From Aquificota bacterium (GTDB taxonomy: Bacteria; Aquificota; Aquificia; Aquificales; Aquificaceae), in assembly GCA_018771605.1 (NCBI GenBank), contig CP076324.1, positions 1,054,001 to 1,118,000 of the forward strand: DNA of 64,000 nt, written 5' to 3'. The translations under genes were made by a program, and so were the position numbers. The notes under the pieces are model-generated. The model was given only the letters and a program-made list of their open reading frames with translations, made no database searches and had not been told where the DNA came from. Positions 4,291 to 47,376 of this stretch are shown piece by piece; position 1 is the first letter of the stretch; each line of letters begins with the position of its first letter.

Positions 4291-4409
4291 ACATAAATTG
4301 AAATTCATTGTCAATAACTTTACAGAGAACATATAAAAATTTTTTGTCTAATTTATCTTCAGCAAGGACAGGCATATCACTTTACAATCCAGACCTTACG
4401 GAAATGCAT

Positions 4410-42006: not shown

Positions 42007-43082
42007 TGAGCGATCTTGAGTTTATGCAAAGAGCCATTGACCTTGCCAAGGAGCGCAAGGGACTTACACACCCAAATCCAACTGTAGGTTGCGTGATAGT
42101 GAAGGATGGACAGATAGTGGGAGAGGGCTATCATGAAAGGGCTGGCATGCCCCATGCAGAGGTGGTGGCACTACAACAAGCTGGAGAGATGGCCAGAGGA
42201 GCTACCCTTTATGTAACCCTTGAGCCTTGCACTCACTATGGTAGGACTCCTCCTTGCACCGATGCCATAATAAGAGCCGGGCTAAAGCGGGTGGTTATTG
42301 CCACATTGGACCCAAACCCCCTTGTTTCTGGCAAAGGTGTAGAGAGGCTAAAAAGGGCTGGCATTGAAGTGTCTGTGGGTGTGTTAGAAGAGGAGGCAAA
42401 AAGGCTAAACGAAGACTTTTTTACCTACATAACGCAAAAGAGGCCTTACATAACCCTAAAGTGGGCCCAGAGCATAGATGGGTCTATGGCTACAAAAACG
42501 GGAGATAGCAAATGGATAAGTTCTCAAGAGTCAAGAGATTTTGCTCACAGGCTAAGGGCGGAGGCAACGGCCGTGCTTGTGGGTATAAACACAGCCTTAA
42601 GAGATGACCCTGAGCTAACCATAAGGGCCTTTCCTTGGGAAAGACAGCCCATAAGGATAGTCCTTGACCCACAGCTTAGGATAAGGGAAGACTTAAAGCT
42701 GATAAGGGATGGCAAGGCATCTACCATAATAATAACGGCCAGTGAAAACAGGGAAAAGATACAAAGGTTGGAAGAGATGGGTGTAAGGGTCCTTTTGGCA
42801 CCTTCAAAGGATGGGAGGTTGGATCTGAAGGAAGTTTTAAGGGAGCTTTACTTTATGGAGGTTATGCACCTTTTGGTGGAAGGGGGTTCTATTACCCATA
42901 CCACTTTTATAAGAGAGGGGCTTTTTGACAGGCTTTGGGTATTTGTAGCACCCCTTTTGATAGGAGAGGGCAAGAGGATAGGAGAACTTAATGTAGAAGC
43001 TTTGCAAGAGGCCAAAAGGCTACGCCTCAGGGAAATAAAAAGGTTTGGAGAAGATGTAGCCTTGGAGTATCTTAATCTTTGA
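42006..43082 (+). CDS. ribD: Bifunctional riboflavin biosynthesis deaminase/reductase
   Basis: 358 aa. The N-terminal CDA-fold deaminase has zinc ligands in HAEVVAL and EPCTHYGRTPPCTDAI. The C-terminal DHFR-like reductase starts about residue 145 (RPYITLKWAQSIDGSMATKTGDSKWIS) and closes with LLVEGGSITHTTFI. It carries out steps 2 and 3 of riboflavin synthesis from GTP. It converges with trmD with an 11-bp overlap. Confidence 0.95.
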   Translation: MSDLEFMQRAIDLAKERKGLTHPNPTVGCVIVKDGQIVGEGYHERAGMPHAEVVALQQAGEMARGATLYVTLEPCTHYGRTPPCTDAIIRAGLKRVVIATLDPNPLVSGKGVERLKRAGIEVSVGVLEEEAKRLNEDFFTYITQKRPYITLKWAQSIDGSMATKTGDSKWISSQESRDFAHRLRAEATAVLVGINTALRDDPELTIRAFPWERQPIRIVLDPQLRIREDLKLIRDGKASTIIITASENREKIQRLEEMGVRVLLAPSKDGRLDLKEVLRELYFMEVMHLLVEGGSITHTTFIREGLFDRLWVFVAPLLIGEGKRIGELNVEALQEAKRLRLREIKRFGEDVALEYLNL

Positions 43083-43848
43083 GCATCCTTATCGCCTTCT
43101 CATAGCCTACCCTTTCAAGCCAGCCCTCAAAGGTAAGGCCCTCCTTTATGGCTGTAAGAATGGAGCTTTCTAACTCTGTTAGGTCCTTTGGCACAAGGTC
43201 CGGCCTTAGCCTTAAGGTCCTCTCTACGGAATGCCAAAGCTCCCAAAGTCTTATAAGCTGGTGGTTTCCGGAGAGGAGAACATCCGGCACCCTCATTCCT
43301 CTAAATTCCGGGGGCCTTGTATAAACTGGAGAGCCAAGCCATCTTCTAAAAGAATCTCTTTTTATACTTTCTGGCTCACTCAAAACGCCGGGCAAAAGCC
43401 TTGCAATGCCTTCCAAAAGCACAAGGGCAAAAAGCTCTCCCCCTGCCAAAACAAAATCTCCCAAAGACAGCTCCTCATCGGCAAGAGTGCTTATCCTTTC
43501 GTCCAAGCCTTCATACCTTCCACATATTACGGCTATACTTTCAAGCTCTGAAAGTCTATCTAAATCTCCCTGATCTATCCTTTTGCCCCATGGCTGTGGA
43601 ATTATGGTATGTGGTCTTCCATGCGTTTTTAACAACTCTTCGTATGCCAAGAAGACAGGTTCGGGCTTTATAACCATACCGGGATGACCGCCGTAGGCCG
43701 TATCGTCCACTTGTCCCTTATGTGCATACCTTCTTATGTCTACGGTATAAAGCTCAAGCGATCCCTTCTTTATGGCTTGCCTTACTATGCCATACTCTGC
43801 ATAACAATTTATCACCTGAGGAAAAATAGTAAGCACAAAGAACTTCAT
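43072..43848 (-). CDS. trmD: tRNA (guanine37-N1)-methyltransferase
   Basis: 258 aa. The SPOUT trefoil-knot methyltransferase motifs are VKPEPVFLAYEEL, CGRYEGLDERI and LSLGDFVLAGGELFALVLLE. SPVYTRPPEFRGMRVPDVLLSGNHQLI contains the catalytic Asp and tRNA-recognition segment. It prevents frameshifting by m1G37. Usually trmD lies with rpsP/rimM/rplS; here it is third in an operon after a HTH protein and a Xer recombinase (4-nt overlap). Confidence 0.96.
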   Translation of the reverse strand: MKFFVLTIFPQVINCYAEYGIVRQAIKKGSLELYTVDIRRYAHKGQVDDTAYGGHPGMVIKPEPVFLAYEELLKTHGRPHTIIPQPWGKRIDQGDLDRLSELESIAVICGRYEGLDERISTLADEELSLGDFVLAGGELFALVLLEGIARLLPGVLSEPESIKRDSFRRWLGSPVYTRPPEFRGMRVPDVLLSGNHQLIRLWELWHSVERTLRLRPDLVPKDLTELESSILTAIKEGLTFEGWLERVGYEKAIRMLKD

Positions 43849-44708
43849 CTAAGAAAGCTCTTTACAAGGTTTTTGGCCCTGTCTTGGCTAAACCTATAGT
43901 ATATGTCTATGGTGGTCTTTACGTTAGAGTGGCCGGCGAACTCCTTTACCACCTCCGCAGGAAAGCCAGCATTAACAAGGTTTGTTATGTAGGTATGCCG
44001 GAAGCTATGAACTGAGAAAGGAATACCAAGCCTTTGAGATAGCCTGTTGGTAAAAACTTGTAAGGACCCTGTGTTTACTTTTATGTATTTTTCGTAGTCT
44101 TCAAGCCAAAGGTCAAGCTTTTGGCTTATCTCTAAGCTTTCTTCCTTTGTGGGGCCAATCAAAGGTACCATCCTTTCCTTCTTCCTTTTGGTGATTTCCG
44201 CGGGAAGCCTCAACCAGTATATACCTTCTGAATCTTTACGGAAGAACTCACTACTGAGCTTTGCATACTCGGATAGCCTAATACCACTATACAGGAAGAG
44301 TGTATAAACCCGTTCGTATTTTGTGTTCTTTACAGATTGAAATATTCTTTGGAGTTCTTCCTTTGTAAGCGCCCTTGGGCTCCTTTGGAGCCTTGAAGTA
44401 GAAAACTCATCCCTAATATCCTCTATTACAGACTCTATATCCGAATAGCGTTCTTTATCAAGCCAACCCCTTCTAAAGGCAAACCTGTAAAAGTGCTTTA
44501 TGGCAGATAGATGTGTAAGTATGGAAGACACAGAAAGGTTTGTGGAGTCTATGTAAGAGTATATATCTCCTTGTTCCGCCTCAAGCAGGCTTTTACCCTC
44601 TCCCAAATGCTTTTGAAAGGTGCTAAGGCACGTTTTGTAAGTTATTATGGTCCTCTGGCTTTTTGCCCTGCTTAGACTTTTAAGCCACAGGTCCAAAAGC
44701 CTATCCAT
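43845..44708 (-). CDS. Tyrosine recombinase, Xer family
   Basis: 287 aa. The N-terminal SAM-like core-binding domain occupies about residues 1-100 and the catalytic domain about 110-287. Catalytic residues are Arg144 (YSGIRLSEY), Lys about 174 (EITKRKKERM), His234 and Arg237 (HSFRHTY), His260 (AGHSNVKTT), and nucleophile Tyr270. The length fits XerC/D/A/H (about 290). It is probably the chromosome dimer resolvase, because a 28-bp dif-like site lies about 730 bp upstream. It is co-transcribed after a HTH/coiled-coil gene (10-nt gap) and before trmD. A phage or plasmid integrase is possible but less likely given these neighbours. Confidence 0.88.
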   Translation of the reverse strand: MDRLLDLWLKSLSRAKSQRTIITYKTCLSTFQKHLGEGKSLLEAEQGDIYSYIDSTNLSVSSILTHLSAIKHFYRFAFRRGWLDKERYSDIESVIEDIRDEFSTSRLQRSPRALTKEELQRIFQSVKNTKYERVYTLFLYSGIRLSEYAKLSSEFFRKDSEGIYWLRLPAEITKRKKERMVPLIGPTKEESLEISQKLDLWLEDYEKYIKVNTGSLQVFTNRLSQRLGIPFSVHSFRHTYITNLVNAGFPAEVVKEFAGHSNVKTTIDIYYRFSQDRAKNLVKSFLR

Positions 44709-44718
44709 ACTTAAAATT

Positions 44719-45351
44719 TTATTCCTTCTTCTTCCTTTTCTCTAGTTCCATCCTAAGAGCTGATAATTCCATCTCTTTACTCAAAAGCTCCTTGTCCTTA
44801 TCCAGTATAACCCTTTGAATTTCAAGCTCTTTTTGGTTAAGTATATAGTCCTTTTCCCTTAGGGCTTCTTCAAGCTCCCTTATCCTCTTTTCTTTTTCAC
44901 CAAGGCTTTCTTTTAATTTTTCGCACTCCCTTTCTTTTTCTAAACACTTTTCCTTTACGTTTGCTAACTCCTTTACAAGGAACTCCATCTCCTTTTCTCT
45001 TATAGCAAGCAGAGTGTAAAGACTGGAAAGCTCATGCAGGAGCTGTTCCTTTTGTTGTTCCTTTTGCATAAGTGCAGACATGTAGGTAGCGATAAGGCTT
45101 CCTTCCAAGGTAGATTTGAGACCCTCAAGGTTTGACTGTAGCTTTTTATCCTTTTCCTCTTGAGCCTCCTTTAGATTTCTTAGGTGGTCCAATTCTTCCT
45201 GAGTGAGATAAACATACCATATACCGTCTTCCTCCTTACCACCCTTTAGCACACCGGCCCTTATACGGTTCTTAACCGTGTTTAGAGATAGGTCTGTTAG
45301 CATAGCGTACTCGGATGCCTTCACTTTGACAACATCTTTGCCACTTTCCAT
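44719..45351 (-). CDS. HTH plus long coiled-coil protein encoded upstream of the Xer recombinase
   Basis: 210 aa. An N-terminal MerR/excisionase-like winged HTH lies at residues about 8-55 (VKASEYAMLTDLSLNTVKNRIRAGVLKGGKEEDGIWYVYLTQEELDHL). A continuous coiled coil runs to the C-terminus (about 60-210). It could be a DNA-binding recombination accessory factor or autorepressor. TTGACA half-sites surround its promoter. The start ATG 45351 has a clear GGAGG 6 nt upstream, so this gene has a normal leader. I know of no named family. Confidence 0.7.
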   Translation of the reverse strand: MESGKDVVKVKASEYAMLTDLSLNTVKNRIRAGVLKGGKEEDGIWYVYLTQEELDHLRNLKEAQEEKDKKLQSNLEGLKSTLEGSLIATYMSALMQKEQQKEQLLHELSSLYTLLAIREKEMEFLVKELANVKEKCLEKERECEKLKESLGEKEKRIRELEEALREKDYILNQKELEIQRVILDKDKELLSKEMELSALRMELEKRKKKE

Positions 45352-45368
45352 GATAGCCTCCTTTCAAG

Positions 45369-45421
45369 CTTTTGACAGTATTTTATATCATCTACTATTA
45401 AGTGTCAATGACTGTCAAAGG
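45369..45421 (-). promoter_or_regulatory. Promoter and putative operators of the HTH-xer-trmD operon
   Basis: On the minus strand: -35 TTGACA (45408-45403), a 17-bp spacer, and -10 TAAAAT (45385-45380). The hexamer TTGACA occurs twice in the same direction (45418-45413 and 45408-45403). It occurs once inverted as part of the 10-bp inverted pair CTTTTGACAGT (45369-45379) and ACTGTCAAAGG (45411-45421). The left arm falls near the start point and the right arm just upstream of -35, as for an autorepressor. Confidence 0.55.
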
Positions 45422-45435
45422 ATAGGGGAAGTAGG

Positions 45436-45463
45436 TGTTAATATAATAGCAATTATATTAACA
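45436..45463. other. dif-like Xer recombination site (28 bp, 11-6-11)
   Basis: The left arm TGTTAATATAA (45436-45446) and right arm TTATATTAACA (45453-45463) are perfect inverted repeats around the six bases TAGCAA (45447-45452). The length, the 6-bp centre and the inner ATAA/TTAT boundaries are those of bacterial dif sites. It is AT-only in the arms with no U-tract, so it is a poor terminator. It lies upstream of the operon encoding the only Xer recombinase in the window. Confidence 0.6.
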
Positions 45464-45520
45464 TTATGGATAAAAAGATGGGGGCATATTAGAGCCTCTT
45501 GTGTTAGAGTGATTGATTTC

Positions 45521-45727
45521 TTATTCCTCTACTTCCTTCAAAACTTCTTCAAGATAAGCCTTTAAGCTTTTTAAACCCTCAGGATCAAATTTCCCATCCA
45601 CTACCACGATTATTTCATCATCCACAATGACCACTCCCACGTTTGAAACACTAAAGTTTTTCTTTATGTAATCCATATGCTCTAATAGAAGAGTTTTAGC
45701 TTTTGAAAGCTTTTCCTCCTTAGTCAT
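45521..45727 (-). CDS. Small conserved-looking protein, unknown
   Basis: 68 aa. A helix (EEKLSKAKTLLLEHMDYIKKNF), two strands (VGVVIVDDEIIVVVDGKF), then a helix, a compact alpha/beta plan. It overlaps the SpoVG-like gene by 4 nt and is third in the def operon. The function is unknown. Confidence 0.6.
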   Translation of the reverse strand: MTKEEKLSKAKTLLLEHMDYIKKNFSVSNVGVVIVDDEIIVVVDGKFDPEGLKSLKAYLEEVLKEVEE

Positions 45728-45987
45728 GAAAGACTCTCTTTATAACGGTCCACCACCACCCTCCTTATCTTTTCCAAAAGCTCCCTATCCTCTATCTCCA
45801 CTATAGCCCTTCTACTCTCTGGGCTAAACTCAGGCATAACTATAAAAAGCCCTCCGTTTTTGGCTTCATATAGCCTTATGCCCCTTATAAGTATTTTGCC
45901 ATCAAGCCTTACATCCGCATAAGCCAATATTCTTGGCCTCTTTGAAGATACTTCAAAGGGATAAAAATTAACCAGTTCTACTTTCAC
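45724..45987 (-). CDS. SpoVG-like protein
   Basis: 87 aa. The segment RILAYADVRLDGKILIRGIRLYEAKNGGLFIVMP matches the SpoVG core (A-x-V-x-[F/L]D-...-I-...-I-[R/K]-...-[G/N]-G-L-F-[V/I]-x-M-P). SpoVG proteins bind RNA or DNA and act as site-specific regulators. It overlaps def by 4 nt. Confidence 0.75.
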   Translation of the reverse strand: MKVELVNFYPFEVSSKRPRILAYADVRLDGKILIRGIRLYEAKNGGLFIVMPEFSPESRRAIVEIEDRELLEKIRRVVVDRYKESLS

Positions 45988-46648: not shown

Positions 46649-46683
46649 ATCTAAAAGTGAAAACCTTTAAAGGAGGTGTAGCG

Positions 46684-47025
46684 ATGGCCACACTTAGCAA
46701 GCTAAAAGAGCTTATGTCCATACCAGGGGCGATTGCCGCAGGAGAGTTTTCCGATGATGGCAGGCTTCTTGCCTACTATGGCAACATTGATGAGAAGTCT
46801 GCAGAGATAGCCGCTATGATGTGTGCGGCCAACAAGCTTATGGGTAGTATGCAGGCAAAGGGCTGGAGCGCATATACGGGACAGGGTGGTTTTTATCCTG
46901 TTTGTGGCTTTGCTGTAGCGGGTGGCAAGTATGCTGCCTGCATAATGGGCAATGTGGGAGTTTTTGTAGAGCTTGATAAAGCAGACTTTGACAAGACCTT
47001 TGAAATCCTTTCCAAATACATCTAA
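46684..47025 (+). CDS. DUF2173 family protein, first paralogue
   Basis: 113 aa, roadblock-like alpha/beta size. It begins MATLSKLKELMSIPGAIAAGEFSDDGRLLAYYGNI and has the family features of a 'G.A.GEFs.DG.L..Y.G' strand pair, a Cys in AAMMCAANKLMG, and a C-terminal GKYAACIMGNVGVFVELD. DUF2173 proteins are found in sulfur- and hydrogen-oxidising bacteria; their function is unknown. Start ATG 46684 has a perfect Shine-Dalgarno. Together with the next gene it lies behind a sigma54 promoter. Confidence 0.85.
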   Translation: MATLSKLKELMSIPGAIAAGEFSDDGRLLAYYGNIDEKSAEIAAMMCAANKLMGSMQAKGWSAYTGQGGFYPVCGFAVAGGKYAACIMGNVGVFVELDKADFDKTFEILSKYI

Positions 47026-47040
47026 AAGGAGGTAAAAGCC

Positions 47041-47376
47041 ATGGCAAACCTTGACAGGCTTATGCAAATTAAAGGTGTTTGGGCGGCAGGTGAGTTTACC
47101 AACGACGGAAAGCTTGTAGCTTATAAGGGCAACATATCCGAAGAGCAGGCTGCAATGGCCGCTGAGATGTGCGCAGCCAACAACGCTATGGCAAAGATGC
47201 AGTGCGACGGATATACAGCCTTTTCTGGCCAGGAGTGGACACCACTGCATGGGTGGGCCCTTACCGGTCCCAAGTACTCTGTGTGTGTAATGGGTAATGT
47301 GGGTGTGTTTGTAAATAACGACGAAGTGTCTTTCAACGAAGTATTTAAGGCGTTGAGGGAAGAGGCAGGGAGGTAG
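47041..47376 (+). CDS. DUF2173 family protein, second paralogue
   Basis: 111 aa, clearly homologous to the upstream gene: MANLDRLMQIKGVWAAGEFTNDGKLVAYKGNI, AAEMCAANNAMAKMQ, and KYSVCVMGNVGVFVNNDE. The gap is 15 bp with Shine-Dalgarno AAAGGAGGTAA. The tandem pair suggests a heterodimer (inference). A strong terminator follows at 47384. Confidence 0.85.
   Translation: MANLDRLMQIKGVWAAGEFTNDGKLVAYKGNISEEQAAMAAEMCAANNAMAKMQCDGYTAFSGQEWTPLHGWALTGPKYSVCVMGNVGVFVNNDEVSFNEVFKALREEAGR

Follow-up and report, generated by a model that had tools for sequence, protein, structure and literature searches.

An exact 28-bp palindrome at positions 45436-45463 of the window, by which we mean the whole 64-kb stretch of DNA analysed here, is very probably the dif site of this Aquificaceae genome (G000). 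We read it, with a probability of about 0.7, as part of a chromosomal single-Xer dif system with a dedicated DNA-binding coiled-coil partner encoded at the side of the site. The arms, TGTTAATATAA and TTATATTAACA (11 bp each), are exact reverse complements around the 6-bp centre TAGCAA, as the initial annotation had described; the site carries no strand assignment and is conserved in the family. The window has no other perfect 11-6-11 palindrome, and 0.03 are expected by chance per 64 kb (30 Markov-1 simulations of the same composition). When the centre is left free and as many as 3 mismatches are allowed, the arms match once in the window compared to 0 matches in 100 shuffles. A single genomic copy had been expected, and a scan of all 1,722,082 bases of G000, a genome in a single contig, indeed returned 1 exact site, followed by 1 look-alike with 3 mismatches and 0 hits to the backwards control pattern; at ≤2 mismatches the site is single copy. 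It lies in non-coding DNA between the stop codon of a 68-aa ORF at 45521 and the start of an HTH gene at 45351, again as originally placed, and its G+C content is 4/28 against about 0.41-0.44 locally. Low G+C and a non-coding position are both given as criteria for dif sites in PMC2731167. A 95-aa plus-strand ORF (45278-45565) that spans the site region and overlaps the HTH gene is taken as spurious.

Several features were observed in passing. A weaker dif-like site with 3 mismatches lies at G000:462750 (L002:1501-1528), just upstream of a 353-aa exported-looking ORF, and a 5-mismatch dif-like copy follows 250 bp beyond it. Within the window, an 87-aa SpoVG-like protein (45724-45987, Pfam 36.2 bits) is encoded upstream of the dif region, and positions 46657-47376 hold two tandem small proteins (122 and 111 aa) whose sequences seem similar on visual inspection.

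The gene order HTH-xer-trmD on the minus strand also stands as first described. The xer gene (43845..44708, minus strand) encodes a 287-aa Xer-type tyrosine recombinase matching Pfam Phage_integrase with 65.2 bits, and trmD (43072..43848, minus strand; Pfam tRNA_m1G_MT, E 9e-52) overlaps its end by 4 bases as an operon mate. The initial annotation had supposed a single Xer and proposed a check for a further xer gene; the 287-aa protein is the sole PF00589 match of G000 (n=1), and some relatives have 2-4. Residues R144, K174, H234, R237, H260 and Y270 are invariant in 21 aligned Xer sequences, and we presume them to be catalytic, in line with an alignment with XerA. The protein is about equally close to the NCBIfam models of XerD (88.8 bits), XerA (88.4) and XerC (84.3), and scores below the cut-offs of XerC, XerD, XerA and XerS, far below them for the first three. 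Judged by its sequence, it is a divergent Xer. The best solved relative by sequence is 4a8e (E 2.6e-11), an XerC-like archaeal recombinase that we take to be archaeal XerA.

Across the family, an Xer match is present in 60/64 genomes and in all 47 genomes that bear a convincing site (in G052 as a contig-edge fragment alone), and the four Xer-less genomes (G007, G020, G044 and G077) are also without a dif site. The single Xer very probably acts on dif. Separately, in family f2, genus g12 (G025, G027, G029, G031, G035, G037), 6 of the 7 f2 genomes, at 88-95% completeness, have no PF00589 protein, and Xer may be missing there.

The conservation of the site was mapped in 64 Aquificaceae genomes with up to 3 mismatches allowed. 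Matches occur in 51/64 genomes and for the backwards control pattern in 1/64. Four genomes with doubtful 3-mismatch matches alone (G046, G069, G024, G078) were dropped, and four others with 3 mismatches (G047, G049, G053, G059) were retained because the core is intact, which leaves a convincing dif copy in 47/64 genomes. Genomes from ten genera each carry one clear copy, with extra matches at 2 or 3 mismatches in a few genomes such as G004 and G068. The proposal of a dif-type site, present once per genome, is supported. Positions 2, 4, 5, 9-12, 18-21 and 25 are invariant across the 47 sites, and there is hardly any constraint on centre positions 13 and 16 (0.24 and 0.15 bits); the outer arm bases vary slightly and the inner arm bases are invariant. 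This pattern of conserved arms and variable centre is, from the alignment, that of two protein-binding arms around a spacer. The TTAT of the right arm is present in 47/47 sites, and the consensus TTATRTTAAC contains TTATRTTAA, which we take to be the conserved XerD-type dif arm, with the E. coli arm used for comparison. At least 9 of the 11 arm pairs are complementary in 43/47 sites, so that the near-symmetry thought to suit one recombinase on both arms extends to the family.

A convincing site is absent from 17/64 genomes at this threshold, including G064 and G071, which are 99% complete and have an Xer. Nine Xer-bearing genomes, these two among them, give no match whatever at ≤3 mismatches; their sites may be divergent or unassembled. 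As separate observations, locus L175 (contig G046:C20) has an identical dif-like 28-mer at 1-28 and 4368-4395, as in a circular element assembled with overlap, and encodes a 447-aa open frame, possibly a plasmid or phage with a dif-like site. Nine viral contigs (L280-L288) have an exact core match, for which chance is possible as the pattern is so AT-rich.

We then compared what remains linked to dif. In the window dif lies 728 bp from the xer start, and xer is found ≤3 kb from dif in 17/27 genomes holding both dif and the wHTH gene. In four closed genomes (G014, G023, G067, G072) the two are 178-674 kb apart, in G068, G070, G073, G074 and G076 they are on separate contigs, and G005 is split by contigs. 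The proposed linkage of dif and recombinase gene therefore holds in the window's genus but not family-wide, with xer 178-674 kb away or on another contig in 9/27. The wHTH gene, on the other hand, adjoins dif in 27/27 genomes with both, on the same contig and oriented away from the site; internal stop codons in the wHTH match of G022 and G074 and a truncated gene in G068 mean that not all 27 are intact for certain. (In G024 the wHTH gene runs into the end of its contig, and no dif is seen there.) On the far side of dif the largest ORF belongs to 17 unrelated groups in 24 testable loci, a comparison based on the longest ORF within 1.4 kb that can overlook shared genes. As wHTH is always beside dif, xer is often apart and the far side varies, the stable pair is dif and wHTH.

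Where the wHTH gene is present, dif is always 78-95 bp from its matched start (27 genomes), a spacing that would also fit a palindrome serving purely as the operator of that gene. We consider this reading extremely improbable, as the site is conserved in 20/47 site-bearing genomes without a wHTH gene, both the 11-6-11 layout and the TTATRTTAA arm resemble those of dif sites, and another motif already suits wHTH binding. The occurrence of dif in wHTH-less genomes and far from xer is not explained by a control element of either gene, and the persistence of dif with xer elsewhere and without wHTH fits a site acting at a distance.

The partner encoded in the window is a 210-aa protein (44719..45351, minus strand) with a winged HTH and a long coiled coil according to its predicted structure. 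The initial annotation had named a coiled-coil DNA-binding partner, which is indeed present; it goes with dif, however, and not with the recombinase, and an unrelated ribbon-helix-helix (RHH) gene replaces it in other genera. In the AlphaFold monomer (mean pLDDT 92.5, pTM 0.38) the elements E7-11, H12-19, H23-31, E37-39 and E45-50 are followed by a single predicted helix 51-209 (159 residues). The top Foldseek matches are RacA-DNA, BldC and mycobacteriophage Xis, all with E > 0.05, so the likeness to RacA and Xis is confined to fold and plan. Pfam HTH_17 matches 6/19 wHTH members (best E 0.02) and DUF3972 matches 2/19 aligned proteins (best E 3.5e-4), the latter considered as a possible link to epsilonproteobacterial systems, for which a literature search gave one unrelated paper.

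Between dif and the first wHTH codons, and partly inside these codons, lies a cluster of six TGAYA/TRTCA half-motifs (45327..45417, no strand assigned) with copies at 45327, 45351, 45373, 45386, 45403 and 45413. It is the only cluster of at least 5 half-motifs in 110 bp in the window, and 0 such clusters occur in 400 kb of sampled G000 sequence, a result that leaves room for single scattered sites. In 26 distinct dif-wHTH spacers the half-motif has 165 copies compared to 33.6 (sd 5.3, max 52) in dinucleotide shuffles, a count that measures conservation rather than independent trials as the spacers come from relatives. The narrower TGACA/TGTCA has 80 copies in 26 wHTH spacers versus 12.5 in shuffles and 0 in 13 RHH spacers, and the half-motif is at background level in 20 wHTH-less dif loci. 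The array is thus a probable set of binding sites for the wHTH protein, as judged from motif distribution. A Ter-macrodomain (matS-like) spread of the motif was considered and rejected, as there is no enrichment near dif.

The 20 wHTH-less loci comprise 19 of the 47 sites and the doubtful L175. In 13 of them, 12 of genus g6 and 1 of g9, an RHH gene adjoins dif; it encodes a protein of ~100 aa, is unrelated to the wHTH gene and lies at a similar distance, 87-129 bp from dif. Three scanned members are above the Pfam RHH_1 cut-off, the model (mean pLDDT 78.5) predicts helices 11-24 and 28-47 and a C-terminal helix 55-96, and an RWFF end is conserved in 12/12 aligned members. The motif GTAWTAC has 25 copies in the 13 RHH regions, compared to a mean of 0.5 and a maximum of 3 in shuffles, and is absent from the wHTH spacers, so that the repeat separating dif from the partner gene differs between the two kinds of spacer. 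In 12/13 RHH regions the copies are at positions 10 and 75/76 after dif, the inner one adjoining dif and the outer one overlapping the putative promoter. The 47 sites divide into 27 with wHTH, 13 with RHH, 2 with broken RHH-like remnants (G019 and G063, genus g7), 2 with no partner gene beside dif (G016 and G043), 2 on cut or rearranged contigs (G053 and G059) and 1 locus outside the comparison (G079). The sites with remnants or no partner indicate that the partner is dispensable.

What the neighbours do is less firmly indicated, and we lean only slightly towards the view that the dif-side partner has a function connected with dif. Regulators of the wHTH and RHH types often bind DNA next to their own promoters, and since the putative promoter includes part of the second RHH motif, plain autoregulation accounts for part of the arrays. 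An ordinary single-Xer dif whose wHTH or RHH neighbours are autoregulated DNA-binding proteins with another job, and no part in recombination, would agree with this promoter copy of GTAWTAC and with dif sites lacking an intact partner in G016, G043, G019 and G063. It accounts less well for the occupation of the same dif flank by two unrelated gene families, for a wHTH-dif pairing that outlasts far-side change and xer separation, or for a first RHH motif at fixed distance from dif in 12/13 regions, and we judge it rather unlikely. An origin as a plasmid or phage stability or integration cassette, i.e. an Xer site with a partition-like coiled-coil module that became fixed in the chromosome, is suggested by the resemblance to plasmid partition or KfrA-type genes, in which a DNA-binding coiled coil has repeats upstream, and by the small G046 contig with identical ends that carries a dif-like site. 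One clear copy per genome in ten genera speaks against it, as does the wHTH protein, for which no relatives were found in viral contigs, and we regard such a cassette as very unlikely.

Under the preferred reading of a single-Xer dif with a dedicated partner, one Xer would supply all four protomers that bind the near-identical arms of the two copies of dif carried by a fused sister chromosome. By analogy with the dif/Xer family, strand exchange across the 6-bp centre would then restore monomers. The wHTH protein would repress its own promoter and build a nucleoprotein complex adjoining dif that helps to bring the two dif copies together or into position; its place would be taken in some genera by the RHH coiled-coil protein, which is unrelated and has sites of its own. 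A more specific and tentative proposal is that the partner substitutes for FtsK, the wHTH or RHH coiled coil bridging or anchoring two dif copies and licensing the single Xer. It is conceivable, at the same tentative level, that this function is so bound to its place that two unrelated proteins have filled the role.

A search of 25 genomes, 16 of them from family f1 and none from genera g4, g6, g7, g9, g10 and g11, returned 0 with the FtsK gamma domain of XerCD/FtsK systems, by a procedure that detected 8/14 controls. Activation is therefore probably not by FtsK. FtsK_SpoIIIE matches are short, and the G000 match falls in a phospholipase-D-like/HerA protein. At L088:15786-17633 we note a 615-aa phospholipase-D-like and HerA ATPase protein with a weak FtsK_SpoIIIE match; ORFs of similar size give such a match in many relatives too.

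The place of dif on the replication axis was approached through GC skew, dnaA and parS. Skew was sampled in G000 from 40 stretches of 20 kb (46%) plus the window, with one overlapping stretch counted in both, and in relatives from 40 stretches (G023) or 20 each (G014 and G016). Shuffled orders reach the observed cumulative skew range in 38% of cases for G000, 24% for G023, 18% for G014 and 93% for G016. Sampled cumulative GC skew in G000 reaches its minimum at 1.085 Mb, beside dif. This minimum and the dnaA gene 29 kb from dif would, were either marker reliable, point to an origin and not to a terminus. In eight closed genomes the dif-dnaA distance is 7 kb (G018), 29 kb (G000), 102 kb (G016), 174 kb (G022), 210 kb (G014), 359 kb (G023), 548 kb (G006) and 764 kb (G013), a variation so wide that dnaA is distrusted as an origin marker. 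The short distances of 7, 29 and 25 kb in G018, G000 and G021 belong to three different genera. No parS was found in family f1 among the 25 genomes searched. With skew no stronger than in shuffled order and dnaA distance variable, none of the three gives a usable axis.

The arrangement resembles known systems in part. XerH/difH of Helicobacter and Campylobacter and XerS/difSL of streptococci share the use of one recombinase and one site, and in the window's genus the site is likewise next to the recombinase operon, an arrangement that may be a hallmark of single-Xer systems (PMC5357621). The Aquificaceae system differs from both in its canonical, near-symmetric 28-bp 11-6-11 site, in an xer often unlinked from dif, in the FtsK gamma domain not found in the genomes searched and in the partner gene beside dif. 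Archaeal XerA/dif, described in that review as an FtsK-independent system of a single recombinase and a 28-bp site, is alike in these two components, and 4a8e is the best solved relative; in contrast, the Xer of G000, at 88.4 bits, misses the XerA equivalog cut-off of 220 bits, and there is a dif-side partner. Legionella XerL/dif is likewise a divergent single-Xer system with long inverted-repeat arms, overlooked earlier because of its divergence; Legionella has an FtsK homologue, and the accessible part of PMC9765430 describes no dif-side partner.

For the partner, RacA of Bacillus subtilis has the same plan of an N-terminal MerR-type wHTH and a C-terminal coiled coil (5i44, Foldseek E 0.08, probability 0.98). 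RacA binds centromere-like sites and its coiled coil anchors or tethers chromosomal DNA (PMC6593407). Sites for RacA occur over the chromosome, at their highest density close to the origin, whereas the Aquificaceae wHTH has one array beside dif, and the count of 0 half-motif clusters in 400 kb of G000 gives no sign of many ram-like sites, single scattered ones aside. Phage Xis (4j2n) and BldC, both among the top fold matches, share a small wHTH fold acting on repeated sites, and Xis and RacA are named as architectural wHTH proteins in PMC5859096. Unlike these, the Aquificaceae protein has a long coiled coil and a chromosomal dif, with no att site or prophage seen. A literature search returned no paper combining dif site, Xer and Aquifex and none on a dif-side coiled-coil or RacA-like partner, which does not prove absence from print; Aquificaceae, Hydrogenobacter and Thermotoga-type names are absent from the accessible main text of the dif catalogue PMC3025954 and the review PMC5357621.

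If the role of the partner is true, it would bear on the timing of Xer recombination in FtsK-less bacteria, and the 28-bp site, one recombinase and one coiled-coil protein would form a compact, thermostable three-part system for in vitro reconstitution. That two unrelated DNA-binding coiled coils replace one another at the same spot would also clearly illustrate how function can dictate position. Whether or not the partner has such a role, the catalogue of 47 Aquificaceae dif sites offers landmarks for studies of replication and synteny in a family where skew is unreadable.
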